A stretch of DNA of 26,606 bases from a virus: the IMG/VR virus record IMGVR_UViG_3300010392_001031, positions 1 to 26,606 of that record. One strand, written 5' to 3'. The notes under the pieces are model-generated. The model was given only the letters and a program-made list of their open reading frames with translations. It was not told the DNA's origin and did no database searches. Positions 7,407 to 20,683 of this stretch are shown one piece after another. The position numbers and the translations under genes are program-made. The first letter of the stretch is position 1. Each line of letters begins with the position of its first letter.

Positions 7407-9125
7407 GTGGCGAAGGAAATCAAATTTGAAGGCACCGAGCTTGACGCGAACACGCAGCGCGCCATAGCCAGCAATGTCCTGATCGAAGGCGCCCGACCGC
7501 TGGGATGGTGGCGCAGGCAATCGAACAACACGCACAGCCAGTTCATGCGCGCAATGCGCACAAGCCTTGAAAACGGGGAATCGAGCGCGCAGGCGGCGAC
7601 CCGCATTACCGGCGGTACAATCGCTGGCGTGCCAGTCAACGGCATTATCGACACAAGCAAGAAACACGCCAATACCCTTGCGCGTACCGCGCTCAACAAG
7701 GTAACGAACGAAGCCCGCATTGCGTCATTCGAGGCGAACGCCGATGTTGTCAAGGCAATGAAGCAGATAAGCACCCTCGACAACAAAACAAGCCAGATTT
7801 GCATTGCGTACGACGGGCAAGTATGGGACACCGTAACGAAGAAGCCTATACCGCCGTCAACCCTGCCGTTCAACGCCGGACCGCCACGGCATTTCAACTG
7901 CCGGTCAACACTGGTGCCAGTCCTGAAGAGCTGGGAAGAACTTGGCATACCAGCCAAGGAACTGTCGGCAAGCACCCGGGCAAGCATGGACGGGCAGGTA
8001 CCGGACGACACGACCTTTGACGCATTCCTTAAATCGAAAACCGTAGCGTTCCAGAACGACATTTTGGGGGTGACGAAGGCGCAACCGTGGCGCGAAGGCA
8101 AGGTGACCTTGCAGCAATTGGTCGATTTCCGGGGTAACCCACTGACGACTGAACAGTTGCTGGCAGTTGCGGACCAACGACGGGCACGCAGGGCGGCGGC
8201 AGCCGGCGTCACTGCGGCAGCGGCACCACCACCGACATTCGGTGTGGAAGGCGAGCCGGTATTGGCTAAGCGGTGGCAGTCGACCAGTTGGGAGGATTCC
8301 CCCGGGTACGTGCGAAAGACTATACGCCAGACGCCGCCACTGAAGGAAGTTACCAACAAGGCAGACGGCGCGTACTTCCTGCCGGGCAAGTCGTCAATTA
8401 ATATGGACGCCGCGACAAAGACTGGGTCCCTGCGGGATAGAAGCACATGGCGCCATGAATACGGGCACCACTTGGACCGGGAGTTTGCACGACAACTGCC
8501 TGAAGGGCTGCGGAAAAAGGGCCGGAACCATGTCAGCGCGCAAGGCGATTTCCTGAAAGCGTTCGGCGCGGATACGCGCAGCGTGAACAAGGGTGCCGGC
8601 GGGCGCACACCGTCGGTAGCGTTCGACAAGGCGAATGAAATATTTCAGAAGCATGTCAAGGGGGCGATGGACGGCGGAATAGCGTATTTGGAAACTCAGT
8701 TTAAAAAACATGGGCTTAGCTATCGTGGCATGCGTGATTTGCATCGAAAACACATGGGTGCTACAGTGGAATCGCCCAACGATGTGATTATGCGGAACAA
8801 AATGGCTATGTTGTTGTCGGCGATCGAAACGAAGAACGCCAATTTTTACATCGAACAAGTATGGGAACGGGCGCAGTATTTCAAGTCCGGCATTTCTGGG
8901 CATATAGCCGATTATTACGGCGCCATAACGCAGAACAAGGTCGGGTATGGACATTCGCCCGGTTACTACAAGCCGGGAATATTCAAGCGCACGACCGAAG
9001 CTTTCGCCAACGCAACCGCGATGATTGGAGCGGAACCGGGCTGGGCCAAGGTGGTTCGCGCACTTGGACACGATAAATTTTTCAATGAAGTTGACAACTT
9101 ACTTAAAAATGGTGGCAAGATATGA
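7407..9125 (+). CDS. MuF/SPP1 gp7-type minor head protein fused to an HExxH metallopeptidase-like domain
   Basis: GTG start, 572 residues. Residues about 12-172 match the Phage_Mu_F minor head pattern: NVLIEGARPLGWWRRQ, then the hallmark IAYDG...P...GPPRHFNCRSTLVPV at 133-173. Residues 262-278 form an Ala/Pro-rich linker. The C-terminal part carries WRHEYGHHLDREF (HExxH at 350-354), the zinc-site signature of gluzincin metallopeptidases. A later TTEAFANATA (E531) fits the usual third-ligand 'ExFA' helix, preceded by HIADYYGAIT and GYGHSPGYY motifs that recur in such domains. MuF proteins enter the capsid with the portal and can carry C-terminal enzymes or toxins (established for the family). 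Whether this domain processes the head or is injected into the host is open. Confidence 0.85.
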   Translation: MAKEIKFEGTELDANTQRAIASNVLIEGARPLGWWRRQSNNTHSQFMRAMRTSLENGESSAQAATRITGGTIAGVPVNGIIDTSKKHANTLARTALNKVTNEARIASFEANADVVKAMKQISTLDNKTSQICIAYDGQVWDTVTKKPIPPSTLPFNAGPPRHFNCRSTLVPVLKSWEELGIPAKELSASTRASMDGQVPDDTTFDAFLKSKTVAFQNDILGVTKAQPWREGKVTLQQLVDFRGNPLTTEQLLAVADQRRARRAAAAGVTAAAAPPPTFGVEGEPVLAKRWQSTSWEDSPGYVRKTIRQTPPLKEVTNKADGAYFLPGKSSINMDAATKTGSLRDRSTWRHEYGHHLDREFARQLPEGLRKKGRNHVSAQGDFLKAFGADTRSVNKGAGGRTPSVAFDKANEIFQKHVKGAMDGGIAYLETQFKKHGLSYRGMRDLHRKHMGATVESPNDVIMRNKMAMLLSAIETKNANFYIEQVWERAQYFKSGISGHIADYYGAITQNKVGYGHSPGYYKPGIFKRTTEAFANATAMIGAEPGWAKVVRALGHDKFFNEVDNLLKNGGKI

Positions 9126-10405: not shown

Positions 10406-11434
10406 ATGGCTGAAGGTACACGCGAATCCTTTGCGGCGGTCGGTCGACTGCCTGAAGGTCTCATTTATCCCGAACTTGTTCATAGCGGCTTGGTGGAAAC
10501 CCTGACGCAGAACACCGACGCGTTCAACGCTGCTTCACTGAACGCAATTCGCCTTGTTACGCAACTGCGTATGGGTGACTTCCATCAGGAATCGTTCTTC
10601 AAGAACGTTTCGAACCTGATTAGTCGCCGTCTGGTCAACGTATCCCCGGCAAACCCGGCGGTTGATTCCAGTGCAGTCCCTGCCGACGAGCACATCAGCG
10701 TCAAGGTTAACCGTCGTATCGGTCCTATCGACCAGACGCTTGACAGCTTCAAGAAAATGGGTCAGAACCCTGACTTCGAAGTTCTTTCGTTCCTTCTGGG
10801 CGAGCAGATTGCCAAGGCTATGCAGGTCGAACAGCTTGACACCGGTCTACGTTCGGTTCTGGCTGCCATCGTGGGTCAGGCTGCACTGCTGACCGACGGC
10901 GAAGCTTCCCCGCCTACCACGCTCGATACCATTGATCTGGTAAACGGCTTGGCGAACTTCGGCGACGCTGCGGACAAGGTTGTGTTGTGGGTCATGCACA
11001 GCAAGCCTTATTACGATCTGGTGAAAGATCAGATTATCCGCAACATCGACGGTCTGTCGAACTTCAACGTTGCCAGCGCAACCGCTGTGACTCTGAACCG
11101 TCCGGTTCTTATCACTGACAGCGCCGCACTGGTCGCAACTGTTGAGTCGCCCGAACGTGCTCAGTACACCACTTTGGGTCTGACCACCAACGGCGTTGTT
11201 CTCGAAGACAGCGAAGCGCCTACCCTGTTCAACGAAGTTGTTACCGGTAAGCAGAACCTTGTTACCCGGTTGCAGGGCGAGTTCGCTTACAACGTAAGCT
11301 GCAAGGGCTTCAAGCACGATGTCGCTAATGGCGGCGTGAACCCGGATGACACCACGTTGGCCACTTCGACCAACTGGGACAGCGTAATGGACAGCATCAA
11401 AGACCTGTCCGGCGTTGCAATCCGCACGTTCTAA
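10406..11434 (+). CDS. major capsid protein
   Basis: 342 residues, directly after the scaffold and followed by a terminator. It has an excellent AAGGAG ribosome site and codon choice (CGT, AAC, GGT, CTG) typical of highly expressed genes, unlike its neighbours. The middle segment VVLWVMHSKPYYDLVKDQII followed by LSNFNV recalls Gp13-like capsid proteins (HK97 fold; family resemblance by eye). There is no long N-terminal delta domain, in line with the separate scaffold. It forms the icosahedral shell. Function is secure from context; the exact family is less sure. Confidence 0.9.
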   Translation: MAEGTRESFAAVGRLPEGLIYPELVHSGLVETLTQNTDAFNAASLNAIRLVTQLRMGDFHQESFFKNVSNLISRRLVNVSPANPAVDSSAVPADEHISVKVNRRIGPIDQTLDSFKKMGQNPDFEVLSFLLGEQIAKAMQVEQLDTGLRSVLAAIVGQAALLTDGEASPPTTLDTIDLVNGLANFGDAADKVVLWVMHSKPYYDLVKDQIIRNIDGLSNFNVASATAVTLNRPVLITDSAALVATVESPERAQYTTLGLTTNGVVLEDSEAPTLFNEVVTGKQNLVTRLQGEFAYNVSCKGFKHDVANGGVNPDDTTLATSTNWDSVMDSIKDLSGVAIRTF

Positions 11435-11448
11435 AGGTAAGATGGTTC

Positions 11449-11488
11449 GCGGGGGCTTAACGGTCCCCGCTAACTTTTTCTATTTTTG
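11449..11488 (+). terminator. rho-independent terminator after the major capsid gene
   Basis: GCGGGG (11449-11454) pairs with CCCCGC (11465-11470) over a 10-base loop, followed by CTTTTTCTATTTTT. It should separate abundant capsid mRNA from lower-level downstream transcription. Confidence 0.75.
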
Positions 11489-11503
11489 AATGGAGCACAC
11501 AGA

Positions 11504-12004
11504 ATGTCAGATGATTTCGATATCAATAGCGACCGTCGAGTTGCAAAAATCTATTTCACTAACGGATTTGAAAGCCTTGTCAAGGACATGGCAGCCAGTA
11601 TCCGCAACCAGAAGTCACACGCACACCTTATTGACCAGCGCTTTTTCGTAAATTCAGATAATGTCCTGCCTTGCCATGCCGTACTGATTCAGGCGAGCGC
11701 ACGAAACGCTAGGTTGATCGGACGCACATACCAGCAAGACGGCGTCGCCGGCTGTGAAGTCGTGTTCTTCGACGACAACGGCAAGATTACCAAGCTTGAC
11801 CTTGTCGAACCGACCACCTCTTTTGCAACCATGCTGGGCGGCACCGATGAAAAACCAACTGGAAACGACGCTGAACAACAGGTTAACGGACTTCTGGGAC
11901 AACCTGAAGCATACCCCGACGGCGGAACAGCCGGCGAAACCGCAGGACCTGCGGACATTACGGACGGGAATTCCGCAGGAAACGCGGACAATACCGAGTC
12001 GTAA
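11504..12004 (+). CDS. hypothetical head-region protein, 166 aa
   Basis: The ATG at 11504 follows a TGGAG site; the TTG at 11486 in the same frame lies in the terminator tail and is rejected. The first 110 residues look folded (RRVAKIYFTNGFESLVKDMA...). The last 50 are Gly/Ala/Asp/Thr-rich and probably disordered (DGGTAGETAGPADITDGNSA). No family recognised. The disordered tail is encoded in the stretch that also encodes the start of the next gene. Confidence 0.75.
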   Translation: MSDDFDINSDRRVAKIYFTNGFESLVKDMAASIRNQKSHAHLIDQRFFVNSDNVLPCHAVLIQASARNARLIGRTYQQDGVAGCEVVFFDDNGKITKLDLVEPTTSFATMLGGTDEKPTGNDAEQQVNGLLGQPEAYPDGGTAGETAGPADITDGNSAGNADNTES

Positions 12005-12401
12005 CGGCTTCCTGATTGAGAACCTGCGCGGTCCGGCTATCAAGCTGGGCTGCACGGTTGTTATTGGGCACACCCTGGACATTGATCTGATATCGCAACG
12101 CGTAAAATCGGTTGAATTGTATGTGAACCAGTTCACGTATAGCACGTCGATGTTCGCTGGCGCCAGTGCCCGGAAGGAACCTGACTTACCAGACAACGTG
12201 AACTTGCGGCATGGCGCCTTACTTTCCGACGTCGGTTGTTTGGTATGCTTTGGTGAAACCAGCGTGGACTATGGTACAATACATTTTGTGCGTGGTGCGC
12301 GGGTCATGGGCGACCTTATCAATGTCAAACGGTTCGTGAAGGGCCGAAAATTTTCCATCCTGAACAGGTGGAAAGACTTTATCTGCATGGAGTTAGTTTA
12401 A
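11847..12401 (+). CDS. hypothetical protein, about 184 aa, overlapping the previous gene by 158 bases
   Basis: Downstream of 12004 this frame is clearly coding (GPAIKLGCTVVIGHTLDIDL...). No ATG, GTG or TTG suits a start there, so the gene probably begins at ATG 11847 inside the previous gene, with GGGCGG upstream. The upstream ORF from 11754 starts without a site. In the overlap both frames use common codons. The alternative is a +1 frameshift joining it to the preceding frame. The mature part looks beta-rich and soluble; function unknown, probably a virion or head-associated protein by position. Confidence 0.65.
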   Translation: MKNQLETTLNNRLTDFWDNLKHTPTAEQPAKPQDLRTLRTGIPQETRTIPSRNGFLIENLRGPAIKLGCTVVIGHTLDIDLISQRVKSVELYVNQFTYSTSMFAGASARKEPDLPDNVNLRHGALLSDVGCLVCFGETSVDYGTIHFVRGARVMGDLINVKRFVKGRKFSILNRWKDFICMELV

Positions 12402-13015: not shown

Positions 13016-13510
13016 ATGACTGTAGGAACCACTGAACTTTATTCAAACGGAATCAAGCGGTTATCTGGCGTTGATCCAGGTTCGCCTACCCCTTGCCGAC
13101 CGTGGGACACGCCTGACGTTGGGGCGTTCATGTTTGTGCTGGCATCAAGCGCATATACACCGAACTTTGTCCATGACGACATGACAGACGTTACTGGCGA
13201 AATTGTGGCCGGAGACGGCGCTCCGATAGACGCGACGACCAGAACTATAACAGTTTCTGGAAGTCCGACACGGACACGCTACAACAGTGACGATGCGAAT
13301 TTCGGGACAAGCGTAACAGTGACGGCTAAATACCTGCTGTGTGTGAAGCCTGATACCCCGGGGTCATTCGTAAATGATGCAACCACCAAGCTGGCATGGT
13401 ACGTTGACCTTGAAGTGGCATCCCCAGATCCCGGTGACCCTAGTTCTACAGCATCCGATTTCAGGATCAACCAGCCGGCAGAGGGATGGTTCACCGCGTT
13501 TCAACAGTAA
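13016..13510 (+). CDS. putative virion structural protein, 164 aa
   Basis: TTGGAG ribosome site and ATG. The segment GAFMFVLASSAYTPNFVHDD followed by MTDVTGEI resembles a family of small phage structural proteins that start with a 'L..s.Y.p....H' strand and a 'D(v/i)..Ei' turn (recollection, not searched). The rest is Thr/Ser/Asp-rich and beta-like. No signal peptide. By position it belongs to the same head/neck-proximal module as its neighbours. Confidence 0.7.
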   Translation: MTVGTTELYSNGIKRLSGVDPGSPTPCRPWDTPDVGAFMFVLASSAYTPNFVHDDMTDVTGEIVAGDGAPIDATTRTITVSGSPTRTRYNSDDANFGTSVTVTAKYLLCVKPDTPGSFVNDATTKLAWYVDLEVASPDPGDPSSTASDFRINQPAEGWFTAFQQ

Positions 13511-13548
13511 GGCGGAGACTATCTAGGCAACTTACATCACGGAGAGCG

Positions 13549-13570
13549 TACGCCGCCAAAGGGCGGCGTA
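13549..13570 (+). other. stable GC hairpin in the leader of the next gene
   Basis: TACGCCGCC (13549-13557) pairs perfectly with GGCGGCGTA (13562-13570) over an AAAG loop. There is no U-tract, so it is not a standard terminator. It ends 18 bases before the next start and may affect mRNA stability or ribosome access. Confidence 0.6.
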
Positions 13571-13587
13571 TAGTATCAGGAGACACG

Positions 13588-14187
13588 ATGCCCTGCGAAA
13601 TCTTGGTCAAAGCAACCGATAAACCGGGTGGCGTCTGGTTTAAGGGCGACCCTGTCGTTGTAAAAGATGATCCTGTATTTTGGGGCGCCAAGGAAGGTCC
13701 GCCAAACTGGGTTATTGTACGCGTAACTGATTCCAGCGCTGCTCAAATTGAACAGTATATGGCGGCATGGAAACGAGAATTTGAATTTGATATTCTCGCT
13801 AATACGCAGGCAGGGTGGCGGATTCGTATTTCAGTTGACCCAAAAGTGCGCCAAGTATTTGGCATCGATAAGGCTTTCCGCAATGACTTCAGGGATTACC
13901 TTATAGATACTTACGGCGCAGTGGTTCACGACTATGATAATGTGAACCATGAATACGCAGAGCTTGATTTCCCTAAACCCCTACTGAAACTTGACATTTC
14001 GCCAGCAGCGGAAGTCACGCTATCTTTCCTGCAACAAGATTTCCTTGACAAAGCAGAAGATGCACTACAGCCGCGATTATATTATTTTTCCTCAGCCGAT
14101 GTCGACGCCGCATTGACCGCCGGCGGCAAGGTAAACCAGACGCTTGCGCAAATTCAGGCTAAAGTAATAAATCGGCTGACTGAATAA
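13588..14187 (+). CDS. hypothetical protein, 199 aa
   Basis: ATG 13588 with a CAGGAG site is chosen; the longer frame from 13486 runs back through the hairpin and the previous gene. The protein is soluble and charged (KDDPVFWGAKEGPPNWVIVR...), without motifs I know. It overlaps the repeat-protein gene by one base (TAATG), so the two are probably co-translated. It could be an assembly helper or partner of that protein (inference). Confidence 0.7.
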   Translation: MPCEILVKATDKPGGVWFKGDPVVVKDDPVFWGAKEGPPNWVIVRVTDSSAAQIEQYMAAWKREFEFDILANTQAGWRIRISVDPKVRQVFGIDKAFRNDFRDYLIDTYGAVVHDYDNVNHEYAELDFPKPLLKLDISPAAEVTLSFLQQDFLDKAEDALQPRLYYFSSADVDAALTAGGKVNQTLAQIQAKVINRLTE

Positions 14188-16538
14188 TGGCGACTATCAC
14201 CGTCAGGCAATCTGGTTCCTCGCCAGCCGGTGACTTTTCCACGTTAGCTTCCGCGCTAGCTGACTCCGGCACAACTTCCGGCGATACTATATCGATCGAA
14301 GGAACGTGGTCGGTAGATGATACAACAGCTTGTACGATATCTGATACAAATTTAATAATAACCACTGATTCAGAGTCGAAGCACCCCGGCTTTCTGATTG
14401 AAGAAACACGTACTGGAGCGACTGATTACTACCGGCATGTATACGGCGGCGCGTCTGATAACGTAGACGTTAATGCTTCAGGGTGTACAATTTCAGGCAT
14501 CGCTTTTATATCAACCAGCACGACACCTTCGCAAGAAGCTATCGACTATCAGGGCGCGGACGTCGATATTGATTCTTGCATAATCCATTCGACGACGACA
14601 ACAAACCAGAAAGATGGGACATATACAGCTAATACAGCGCGCACACTTAATATAACTAACTCGATTATAACCGGCTGGGCGCGTGCAGGCGTTCATGTAC
14701 AGAACTACGCAGCCGGATCTGGAACACATACCTGTGATGTAGACAGCTGTACTATTTATGCGTGCGCGTTAGACGCGGGCACACGGGTTGCGGGCGGAAT
14801 TCGTGGACAACAAGCTACTACTACTGTCAACATGTCTGTTACAAATACTGTATCTGTAGGAAATACACAGGCAGACTTCGTAGATTCCAACAATCCACCA
14901 GCTTGTAATTGGGTTATAAATTATTGTATTGATTCAGATGGATCTATTGCTACTAATATTGATTCAGGCAGCGATAATCTAGCGAGTCGCACAGAAACAG
15001 ATAGCGATACCCCGGGTATTGGTGATTGGGTTGTATTTGAAGATGTAACATCGGCACCTTATGATCTCAGGTTAAAAACAAACGACGAAAACGACGCAGA
15101 AGACTCAGGGTCGACGGCACTATCAGTGGACATCGTTGGTACGTCTAGGCCGCAGGGTTTAAGTAGTCCTTTGACTGATGACCGCGGCGCGTTTGAAATA
15201 CCGACACCTGAAGGTTCCCCCGTTACGTCGCCGTCAATTCCATCGCCGGCAGGGTTCATTGCAACAGCTCTAGCGGGAATTATACTTTTCACTGGAGCTG
15301 CGCCGACGTTAAATGTTGGTGAAGTATTACCGGCAAATGCTGGTAATGTTATTTACACAGCGGAACAACCAGCAGTCAATATCGGGGTTTCCGGTACCGC
15401 AAATTCCGGCACGGTAGTTTTCAATGGTCAACAGCCGCAGATTGTTATCGGTCACAGCCTTACACCGACAGCCGGCGATATCCTATACAGCGGTCAGCAG
15501 CCCGCCACAGCTCGCGGCATAGCTGCGCAGGGTACGTCCGGAACTATCCTGTACAATGGCCAACAACCGGCAGCGCAGGTCGGAACGATACTCCAAGCCG
15601 CCGCTGGAAGCATAATTTTCAACGGTCAGCAGCCCGCACTAGTAACCGGTGATTCGTTTATTGGGCAAGGGTCCGCCGGCGACATAATTTTCAACGGTCA
15701 ACAGCCGACAGCTGTGGTCGGGGAAATAAAACAAGCATTATCCGGCAATATTATTTTCAATGGTCAGCAGCCCGCACTATTGGTCGGTGCCGGCTTTATT
15801 GATCAGGGTGTCAGCGGGACAATATTATTCAACGGCCAGCAGCCCGCACTATTGGTCGGTACCGCAGTCCAAGCATTATCCGGCAATATTATTTTCAATG
15901 GTCAGCAGCCGAGTGTTCAAGTTGGCGAGACAGGGCAAGGGGACGCCGGCACAATAATTTTCAACGGACAACAACCCTCGCTCCTAACAGGCGCCGGCTT
16001 TATTGATCAGGGCGCAAGCGGCACAATTGTATTCAATGGTCAGCAACCAGTTGTAATATCTGGCTTTGTTGATTCTTCGCTAACAGGCACAATTGTATTC
16101 AACGGACAGCAACCCGTAACGATTAGCGGGTTCATCGACCAAGCGGCAAGCAGCGAGATAATTTTCAACGGTCAGCAACCGGCGCTTGTAATCGGGGCTG
16201 CCTTTATTGGCCAAGCGGCTGCCGGCGAGATAATTTTCAACGGTCAGCAACCTTCGGTAGTTAGCGGAGACGCTTTCATCGGTCAAGCGGCTGCCGGCGA
16301 GATAATTTTCAACGGTCAACAACCTACTGTAGTATTGGGCAAAACATTAACGTCGATCGCTGGCGCTATCATTTTCAACGGACATCAACCAGCTTTATTT
16401 AGGCGAGTCACTACTATTCCCGGTACGCTTGTAGTATCATTGGTTGACGACGGTTTAACCGCCTCACAGGTATCTGACGGATTGGCGGTAACCGTTATTG
16501 AACTCGCACTCACAATAACAGTGGTGGAAACAATCTGA
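14187..16538 (+). CDS. beta-helix virion protein with 17 tandem 22/24-residue repeats, 783 aa
   Basis: Residues 1-350 show the features of a right-handed parallel beta-helix: an opening ITVRQSGSSPAGDFSTLASA, regularly spaced short strands, and many N/T/S/D turns (ITNSIITGW, VDSCTIYAC). Residues about 363-741 are 17 tandem units of consensus (A/S)G-x-IIFNGQQP-x(3)-G-x(5-8), most 22 residues, some 24. A short beta-rich tail follows. The repeats are probably a second stacked beta structure forming a fibre. Location between the capsid and neck genes suggests a head fibre, appendage or decoration protein rather than a tail fibre (inference). Codon use is more AT-rich than in neighbours. Confidence 0.8.
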   Translation: MATITVRQSGSSPAGDFSTLASALADSGTTSGDTISIEGTWSVDDTTACTISDTNLIITTDSESKHPGFLIEETRTGATDYYRHVYGGASDNVDVNASGCTISGIAFISTSTTPSQEAIDYQGADVDIDSCIIHSTTTTNQKDGTYTANTARTLNITNSIITGWARAGVHVQNYAAGSGTHTCDVDSCTIYACALDAGTRVAGGIRGQQATTTVNMSVTNTVSVGNTQADFVDSNNPPACNWVINYCIDSDGSIATNIDSGSDNLASRTETDSDTPGIGDWVVFEDVTSAPYDLRLKTNDENDAEDSGSTALSVDIVGTSRPQGLSSPLTDDRGAFEIPTPEGSPVTSPSIPSPAGFIATALAGIILFTGAAPTLNVGEVLPANAGNVIYTAEQPAVNIGVSGTANSGTVVFNGQQPQIVIGHSLTPTAGDILYSGQQPATARGIAAQGTSGTILYNGQQPAAQVGTILQAAAGSIIFNGQQPALVTGDSFIGQGSAGDIIFNGQQPTAVVGEIKQALSGNIIFNGQQPALLVGAGFIDQGVSGTILFNGQQPALLVGTAVQALSGNIIFNGQQPSVQVGETGQGDAGTIIFNGQQPSLLTGAGFIDQGASGTIVFNGQQPVVISGFVDSSLTGTIVFNGQQPVTISGFIDQAASSEIIFNGQQPALVIGAAFIGQAAAGEIIFNGQQPSVVSGDAFIGQAAAGEIIFNGQQPTVVLGKTLTSIAGAIIFNGHQPALFRRVTTIPGTLVVSLVDDGLTASQVSDGLAVTVIELALTITVVETI
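15273..16409 (+). repeat. protein-coding tandem repeat array, 17 units of 66 or 72 bp
   Basis: Each unit encodes (A/S)G-x-IIFNGQQP plus a variable half. The conserved core DNA is close to ATTTTCAACGGTCAGCAGCC. Units 1-5 and 17 are the most diverged, and the central units are nearly identical in the core. This fits growth of the array by recombination within the middle. Confidence 0.9.
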
Positions 16539-16933
16539 TGGCATGCGTACTTGGAATATCAAGCGAAATTTGTTACTTTCGGGGTGATACAAAAGCCATA
16601 CGGATAAAGGTCGAGGTGTTAGATACGAATGCCAGCCCTAACTTGCTGGTTCCACTAGATATTACCGGCTACACGTTCATAATGACCGTGAACAGTAACG
16701 AGGACCCTATCTCAGCGTCCCCTGTCCCCGGGCAACTATTAAGCATGGGCGGGATTATAGGCTCCCCGACCAATGCCGGAATTGTTGACTTCTTCCCTTC
16801 ACTGGCGGAATCGAATGCGCTACCGGCACCGGAGGAACTGTACTACGATATTCAAATGATCGACCTTGGCGGAATTATACGAACGATCGGCAAGGGAATA
16901 TTCACTACGATCATGGATATAACAAAATCGTGA
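16538..16933 (+). CDS. Ig-like (BppU N-terminal-type) structural protein, 131 aa
   Basis: The ATG overlaps the TGA of the repeat-protein gene. The layout (CYFRGDTKAIRIKVEV...PLDITGYTFIMTVNS...YYDIQMIDLGG) matches the beta-sandwich seen in BppU-type and related phage Ig-like proteins: 'RGDT', a 'lDitGyt' strand, and a 'YYDIq..d..G' strand (family resemblance by eye). Such domains attach fibres or decorate virions. Coupling to the beta-helix gene suggests that it anchors or caps that protein (inference). Confidence 0.75.
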   Translation: MACVLGISSEICYFRGDTKAIRIKVEVLDTNASPNLLVPLDITGYTFIMTVNSNEDPISASPVPGQLLSMGGIIGSPTNAGIVDFFPSLAESNALPAPEELYYDIQMIDLGGIIRTIGKGIFTTIMDITKS

Positions 16934-16989: not shown

Positions 16990-17577
16990 ATGGCTTTAAT
17001 AATTGAAGACGGAACCGTTGTCCCGAACGCTAACTCGTATGTTACGCGTTCAGAAACGAACGATTATTTCAAAGACGTCAACGACACAGTTTGGGCGGGG
17101 GTAACGAACAACAACAAAGATGCGTCGCTAGTGAATGCTTGGCGTTACCTAATACAGCAATATCGGCTTAGGTGGTTGGGTAGCCGTGTGGATGCGACCC
17201 AATCGGGCGACTGGCCGCGCCGTGGCGTACCGGTCGTTGATTTTTTCGACCCATTTTTCAATCAAGTAGGCGTGCCACTTGCGTTTCAGGATACGTACTT
17301 TATTCCAGAAAACGAAATTCCGCAGGAAACAAAAGAAGCGCAAATGCTTCTGGCGCGCGCACAGATTGATGTCGCAAGCGGGCTGACTGTGACATTGCAG
17401 GCACCGCTAGGTCGTGAAACAAGCAAAGAAAAGGTCGGAAGCCTTGAGGTTCAATACATGACGCCCGCAGACGGCGGCAGTGCGCGTCAGACTATTCAAT
17501 ATTGGGATGCTATGCAACGGATTGAGCCATTCTTAAACCCCGCATTTGGAACTGTGGGCAGACTATCAAGGAACTGA
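16990..17577 (+). CDS. head-tail adaptor (DnaT-like ssDNA-binding family annotation)
   Basis: The opening MALIIEDGTVVPNANSYVTR, then YF, and later W...DASLVNAWRYLIQQYRLRWL, is the pattern of the phage family often labelled 'putative DnaT-like ssDNA-binding protein'. In structural operons this protein sits in the adaptor slot after the capsid. 195 residues, normal length. It would form the ring under the portal. The ribosome site AGAGG lies at the end of the tiny basic ORF. Confidence 0.78.
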   Translation: MALIIEDGTVVPNANSYVTRSETNDYFKDVNDTVWAGVTNNNKDASLVNAWRYLIQQYRLRWLGSRVDATQSGDWPRRGVPVVDFFDPFFNQVGVPLAFQDTYFIPENEIPQETKEAQMLLARAQIDVASGLTVTLQAPLGRETSKEKVGSLEVQYMTPADGGSARQTIQYWDAMQRIEPFLNPAFGTVGRLSRN

Positions 17578-20071: not shown

Positions 20072-20683
20072 ATGAACCTTGTCTTTATTTGTACACCGGG
20101 GAACACCGGGAGCAGCGTTTTATCCTCTGTTTTTTCTGAACATGGATTTGTCTCCGCGTCAAATAATAATACGATATCATTACGACGACCTTTCGGTAAT
20201 AACGAAAACTCGCACATCAACCTAACCGTCAAGCGCTACATAAAAGAACGAGGCGGCGATCCATGGTCGCCATTTAGCGGCAAGGAATTCGTTCCTGACG
20301 ATAGATGGCCAGCGATATTCAAGGAAGCTTTGCGCGCAAATAGACTTCATGGAAATGTGGTTATGAAGTCCTCTACGTATCTTTGGCTCAAGGAGAAAAT
20401 GCCGCCCGCGCAGTGGGTGTTTGCCCACCGGCGGATAGATCGGACAGTTGATTCTATGCTGGAAAGGCTATCGCGTAGTTATGATATTACACGCGAAACT
20501 GTTAGCGACCTTGTGAAAGAATATTTCGCCGTGGCGAAAGACAGGTGCGAGTATACGATTGACATGGACGATTTTATAAGAGGCGACAGCCAAGAAATAC
20601 CGCTGATAATGAAAAACTGCGGGGTTGAATATGATAAACTGAAAGCTGAAACTGTAACGAAACAAAAACTTTGGCGATTTTAA
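20072..20683 (+). CDS. sulfotransferase-like P-loop protein (moron), 203 aa
   Basis: Residues 4-20 (VFICTPGNTGSSVLSSVF) resemble the 5'-phosphosulfate-binding loop of sulfotransferases. NVVMKSSTYLWLKEKM (95-110) and WVFAHRRIDRTVDSML (115-130) follow the usual 'vlKsp...l' and 'vhR.p..tv.Sl' strand-helix (3'-phosphate-binding) pattern. It interrupts the otherwise invariant tail-tube/chaperone order, has no strong ribosome site, looks more AT-rich, and is flanked by duplicated hairpin sequence. These are signs of a moron acquired by transfer. It could modify host surface sugars or lipids, or a virion part. The loop lacks the classical Lys/Arg ('PRSGTT') form, so activity is uncertain. Confidence 0.7.
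   Translation: MNLVFICTPGNTGSSVLSSVFSEHGFVSASNNNTISLRRPFGNNENSHINLTVKRYIKERGGDPWSPFSGKEFVPDDRWPAIFKEALRANRLHGNVVMKSSTYLWLKEKMPPAQWVFAHRRIDRTVDSMLERLSRSYDITRETVSDLVKEYFAVAKDRCEYTIDMDDFIRGDSQEIPLIMKNCGVEYDKLKAETVTKQKLWRF

Follow-up and report, generated by a model that had tools for sequence, protein, structure and literature searches.

What does a long, regularly repetitive protein do in a phage whose gene for it lies between the head and neck genes, away from those of the tail tip? The question arises from a linear virus record of 26.6 kb (26,606 nt, called here the window), in which an earlier note had described a beta-helix followed by a repeat array and had suggested an undescribed head appendage. 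We give an even chance to the reading that this protein provides the shaft and the adhesin of a virion appendage that is exchangeable and is built where head and neck meet.

Gene order around the repeat gene

The window carries a siphovirus late cluster that includes genes for the terminase (3538), the portal (5052), a Mu-F-like minor head protein (7407), the scaffold (9569) and the major capsid protein (MCP; 10406-11434, + strand; PF20036, 9e-85), followed by small genes. Then come the repeat gene (14187-16538, + strand), a gene for a 131-aa protein (16538) and the genes for the head-tail adaptor Ad1 (16990-17577, + strand; phrog_477, 2e-36), Hc1 (17546) and neck1 (17935). The cluster continues with the tail terminator (18352), the tube (18798), chaperones, the tape measure (21418) and two tail-tip-like genes (23529 and 24609). 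The repeat gene is therefore part of the late structural cluster and lies between capsid and connector genes, where the earlier note had placed it, with the MCP on one side and Ad1, Hc1 and neck1 on the other.

The MCP gene forms the left anchor of this slot. A small gene 3' of it (11754-12401, + strand), conserved in most sister loci, marks the left edge of a variable cassette. It overlaps a second long frame (11486-12004); both frames have homologues in several sisters and could be overlapping genes or yield a frameshifted product. The gene immediately upstream of the repeat gene (13486-14187, + strand, with a start perhaps at about 13582) gave no match in PHROG and Pfam searches, and its stop codon overlaps the repeat-gene start (TAATG).

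Two other features of the cluster were observed. The Mu-F-like protein (7407-9125) has a C-terminal extension with an HExxH-like motif (WRHEYGHHLD), which is a possible metallopeptidase domain and has related versions in the related contigs L001 and L011. Genes that appear by eye to be P-loop/sulfotransferase-like (FICTPGNTGSS..., VICGLPRAGSTLL...) occur at varying places in the structural clusters of these phages (20072-20683 in the window, 944-1552 in L001, 4284-4898 in L010 and 7027-7836 in L011).

The repeat protein and its relatives

The repeat gene is an intact ORF of 783 aa. Its N-terminal part (aa 1-345; 14187-15221) is rich in Ser, Thr and Asp and, judged by eye from its pattern, is probably a right-handed beta-helix or adhesin. 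Pfam, PHROG, NCBIfam and PDB sequence searches gave no match backing a beta-helix, and an AF2 model of the full-length protein reached a pLDDT of about 25-45 over this part.

A degenerate motif identifies 17 tandem units at aa 366-735 (15282-16391); in 2000 shuffles of the protein the count averaged 0.003 and did not exceed one. Eleven units have 22 aa and five have 24 aa (the latter with an extra F-I near GFIxQ), in addition to the terminal unit. The number of units given by the earlier note is thus correct, but the exact string IIFNGQQP that it assigned to all of them occurs in 8 of the 17, and NGQQP in 13. Nor do 22- and 24-residue units strictly alternate, since their spacing runs 22, 22, 22, 22, 22, 24, 22, 24, 22, 22, 24, 22, 22, 24, 24, 22. 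The array is Gly/Gln/Ala-rich, with low charge (5.1% D/E/K/R) and no Cys. TRF detects two tandem arrays in the DNA itself: a 138-bp super-repeat (22+24 aa) at 15615-15910 and a 72-bp repeat of 2.8 copies at 16131-16334, in the region of units 14-15. The protein ends with a 48-aa C-terminal cap (16392-16535) of the form FRRVTx(4)GxLVVxLxDDGLTxS.

No curated profile in Pfam, NCBIfam or PHROGs covers the 22/24-aa unit. Scans of these collections gave sub-threshold partial matches, the best being phrog_34207 (6e-7 on L001, with no single stretch passing), and membership of a known repeat family was rejected. A PDB sequence search with the array and Ig-like profiles gave no meaningful match. When the array was modelled alone from a four-row alignment, AF2 placed short strands throughout and gave a solenoid-like chain, with a confidence that is low to moderate (mean pLDDT 61.7, pTM 0.65). 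The Foldseek neighbours of this model are weak and mostly beta-solenoids (CsgA, HxuA and LpxA/GlmU types), none of them significant (best E 0.11 in PDB and 0.012 in BFVD). AF2 is known to invent beta-solenoids from repeat sequences (PMC11795689). Structure prediction, which had been proposed as a check, thus supplies short strands in each unit, but with modest confidence and no significant structural neighbour.

Three further, distinct IMG/VR phages encode the repeat protein at the same position: L001, L009 (of which L008 is a duplicate) and L010, which is truncated. Among 50,697 catalogued phages searched by tblastn with the full protein, its N-terminal part, the first units and the L001 array, the one useful match was marginal, to the Manatee Spring podophage (MW202742). 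When GTDB-derived contigs were scanned with the array and with the MCP, no relative could be confirmed and no prophage or host link emerged.

L001 and L009 are close relatives of the window (MCP identity is 96% for L001 and 87% for L009, compared with 83% for L011, which carries a different fibre). Of the four contigs that encode the repeat protein, three allowed its N-terminal part to be resolved. The L001 and L009 proteins begin about 17-35 residues ahead of the array and lack the N-terminal module of the window. Just upstream, each encodes a separate, unrelated protein: 250 aa and jelly-roll-like by eye in L001, 477 aa and beta-helix-like by eye in L009. No similarity was detected among the three modules. 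What is conserved is the start of the array (GFIxxALAxxILFxGAxPxLNxG), the 131-aa gene that follows and, in all four relatives, the C-terminal cap. This implies an unusual polarity, with a conserved C-terminus and a variable N-terminus.

The genes are also coupled. In the window, L001 and L009 the shaft gene overlaps the 131-aa gene, stop on start, and the upstream junctions overlap or nearly do so (TAATG and TGATG in the window, ATGA and TAATG in L001, a 1-base gap and ATGA in L009). That the N-terminal part and the shaft are fused in the window and encoded by adjacent genes in L001 and L009 suggests that they work together.

The near-identity of the central cores had been taken as a sign of active expansion and contraction, for which the DNA offers little support. 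No two of the 11 IxFNGQQP cores have identical DNA, and their pairwise codon differences comprise 173 synonymous and 26 amino-acid changing ones. Over 16 units the core has a pS of 0.78, which is near saturation, and a pN of 0.13 (pN/pS 0.17), compared with a pN/pS of 0.71-0.79 for the residues flanking it on either side. The cores are old and constrained by purifying selection, while the remainder of the unit drifts. Recent expansion as the main history of the array was rejected on the strength of this synonymous saturation. The final units of the array have one-to-one orthologues in L001, L009 and L010. Array length does change, since counts differ between phages and some units are younger (A01 and A02 of L001 are 91% identical, W14 and W15 of the window 82%). 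With terminal units missed by the motif added by eye, there are 17 units in the window, 13 in L001, 15 in L009 and at least 8 in the truncated L010. Comparison of repeat number across relatives therefore bears out variation in length, but not the recent expansion read from the cores.

The slot between MCP and Ad1 in sister phages

We compared the slot in 33 MCP-anchored IMG/VR loci. Between conserved flanks, the stretch as far as Ad1 is hypervariable, with widely differing contents in sisters whose MCPs are 56-96% identical. For example, L011 carries a 494-aa fibre with LADDDHPQYLLIDGTRAMTG and a 24-aa YadA-like periodicity, together with small Ig-like genes, and L027 a protein with a GGTGAVTAGAALGNLG fibre motif (GGTGA-type). 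The slot is thus an appendage cassette, exchangeable among close relatives and occupied by recognisable fibre genes, in agreement with the view of the repeat protein as fibre-like and encoded apart from the tail tip.

Homologues of the Syn5 structural protein gp53, a horn protein, occupy the cassette in seven distinct contigs (L022/23, L025, L028/29, L035, L037, L040 and L043; E 1e-58 to 1e-72), for example at 9833-12079 in L022. They are the first cassette gene, at the MCP end, while the repeat gene is at the Ad1 end. The gp53 homologues have no sequence relation to the repeat protein, and Syn5 itself encodes gp53 elsewhere in its genome. The window has no such homologue, although sister loci yield matches; in L024, L039, L001, L010 and L011 a horn homologue was looked for and not found. 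It may be added that these homologues sit in siphophage-type capsid clusters, and that horn-type appendages may be far commoner than one cyanophage group.

A parallel to the window is seen in L039, completed as L050. Here the same slot encodes a 1635-aa protein (L050 561-5468) with an N-terminal region of about 270 aa and then beta-like repeats in which a DDTL motif recurs at least 55 times, mostly at 21-aa intervals. Next come an Ig-like protein of 125 aa, with a weak A5 match (5e-4), and Ad1. This is the same architecture as in the window, built from an unrelated repeat (GTVAATTLDDTLVAAGEQDNR). At the other extreme, the slot of L024 (9311-9978) is empty: the MCP-side gene is followed by 41 bases and then Ad1. 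A profile search did not find the Ig-like gene on this 67-kb contig. The cassette is dispensable in this sister, and the absence of both suggests that cassette and Ig-like adaptor were lost together.

The marginal Manatee Spring match is also of interest here. It is a 196-aa protein with eight 22-residue LTG repeats of beta-like pattern, and its gene lies directly upstream of a phrog_394 tail-tubular/adaptor-type gene; its score of 25.0 bits barely exceeds the 23.8 bits reached by the best among 1000 permutations that preserve periodicity.

Proposed attachment to the virion

The gene just before Ad1 is a candidate for the point of attachment. In the window it encodes the 131-aa Ig-like protein (16538-16933, + strand; phrog_1084, 3e-8), and phrog_1084-like genes occupy this position in L001, L009, L010, L011, L027 and L040 as well. 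The window protein is 66-67% identical to those of L001 and L009 and 40% to that of L011. In L022 the gene belongs to another family, and its product matches the 'GP4 fiber-tail adaptor gp77' (PF23148, 1e-10; PDB 8jou, 6e-4); the protein at this position in L037 is 40% identical to that of L022. GP4 gp77, which links fibres to the connector, is likewise small, and its gene immediately precedes that of the head-tail adaptor. When the window protein (16538-16930) was searched against Pfam, nothing matched at E 0.1, PF23148 included, and the PDB gave no meaningful match; GP4 and DEV, moreover, are podophages. In both of these, fibres are carried on 15-fold collars around the adaptor (PMC10925440). 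Collar proteins are also numbered directly before neck-1 in Milano (gp13 and gp14; PMC10491603) and 7-7-1 (gp118 and gp119; PMC12796354). This likeness is one of gene order. The decorating domain of the Milano collar resembles glycan-binding proteins, but Milano has no protruding fibres. Attachment at the neck or collar is thus our best guess from position and from these analogues (L022/L037, DEV/GP4, Milano and 7-7-1), not from family membership, and the 131-aa protein is a putative collar protein or fibre adaptor on the same positional argument.

By this analogy, the repeat protein is most likely a neck or collar fibre, with a C-terminally anchored shaft and an N-terminal adhesin. The 17-unit array would form an elongated beta-rich shaft, whose C-terminal cap would probably sit on the virion by way of the co-translated Ig-like protein, itself forming a collar or ring on Ad1. 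The variable N-terminal module would face outward and bind a polymer or glycan on a surface, and would so keep the phage at the cell or within a matrix until the tail tip engages.

The gp53 homologues raise the alternative that the protein is a horn or head fibre, which would decorate a capsid vertex or the capsid surface and aid retention or environmental stability. The Syn5 horn is located at the vertex opposite the tail (PMC10575957), and the fact that gp53 homologues open the cassette in seven distinct contigs of sisters could point to the capsid vertex. However, within the cassette the repeat gene is at the opposite end and is coupled to the gene for the Ig-like protein, and the window lacks a gp53 homologue, so the two organelles may differ. 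In Syn5 the horn is reportedly formed by gp53 together with gp54 (attributed to Raytcheva, 2014). We consider a capsid location unlikely. The neck or collar is favoured because the repeat gene adjoins the Ig-like gene and Ad1 and because sisters encode a GP4-adaptor-like protein, and the 'head appendage' proposed at first is narrowed to an exchangeable head-neck appendage for which the neck or collar is likelier than the capsid surface.

A tail or baseplate fibre or tailspike that happens to be encoded in the head module, using its beta-helix to bind or cleave polysaccharide, seems to us distinctly improbable. Beta-helices are common in tailspikes, and the fibre motif of L011 also occurs in hypothetical proteins of other viruses. 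Nevertheless, the repeat gene precedes all tail genes, with the tail-tip genes following the tape measure (23529 onward); it is coupled to the gene adjoining Ad1, and L024 lacks the whole cassette. Least probable is a product outside the virion, for instance a beta-repeat protein that the infected cell would secrete or display on its surface: the low-charge, Gly/Gln/Ala-rich array does resemble some extracellular repeat proteins, and the weak Foldseek matches include curli CsgA and adhesins, but the gene belongs to a late structural operon with overlapping genes and no signal peptide is obvious by eye.

The neck or collar reading can be extended, more tentatively than the reading for the window itself, to a class of neck fibres of reverse polarity. 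In such a class a small collar protein, Ig-like or gp77-like and adjoining Ad1, would serve as a universal socket for C-anchored shafts of approximately 21-24-aa beta-repeats of independent origin, with exchangeable N-terminal glycan-binding tips, fused or separate, and the same cassette would carry horn-type capsid appendages in sisters.

The catalogue of neck and head appendages is poor, since these flexible structures are missed by annotation as well as by cryo-EM averaging. In these phages, one slot may be occupied by any of three unrelated repeat-shaft or fibre proteins or by homologues of the horn protein, or may be empty. This provides a positional rule for uncultured phages, in which the appendage gene is the one just before the Ig-like or gp77-like gene and Ad1, and the way in which exchangeable fibres attach to the connector becomes directly testable.
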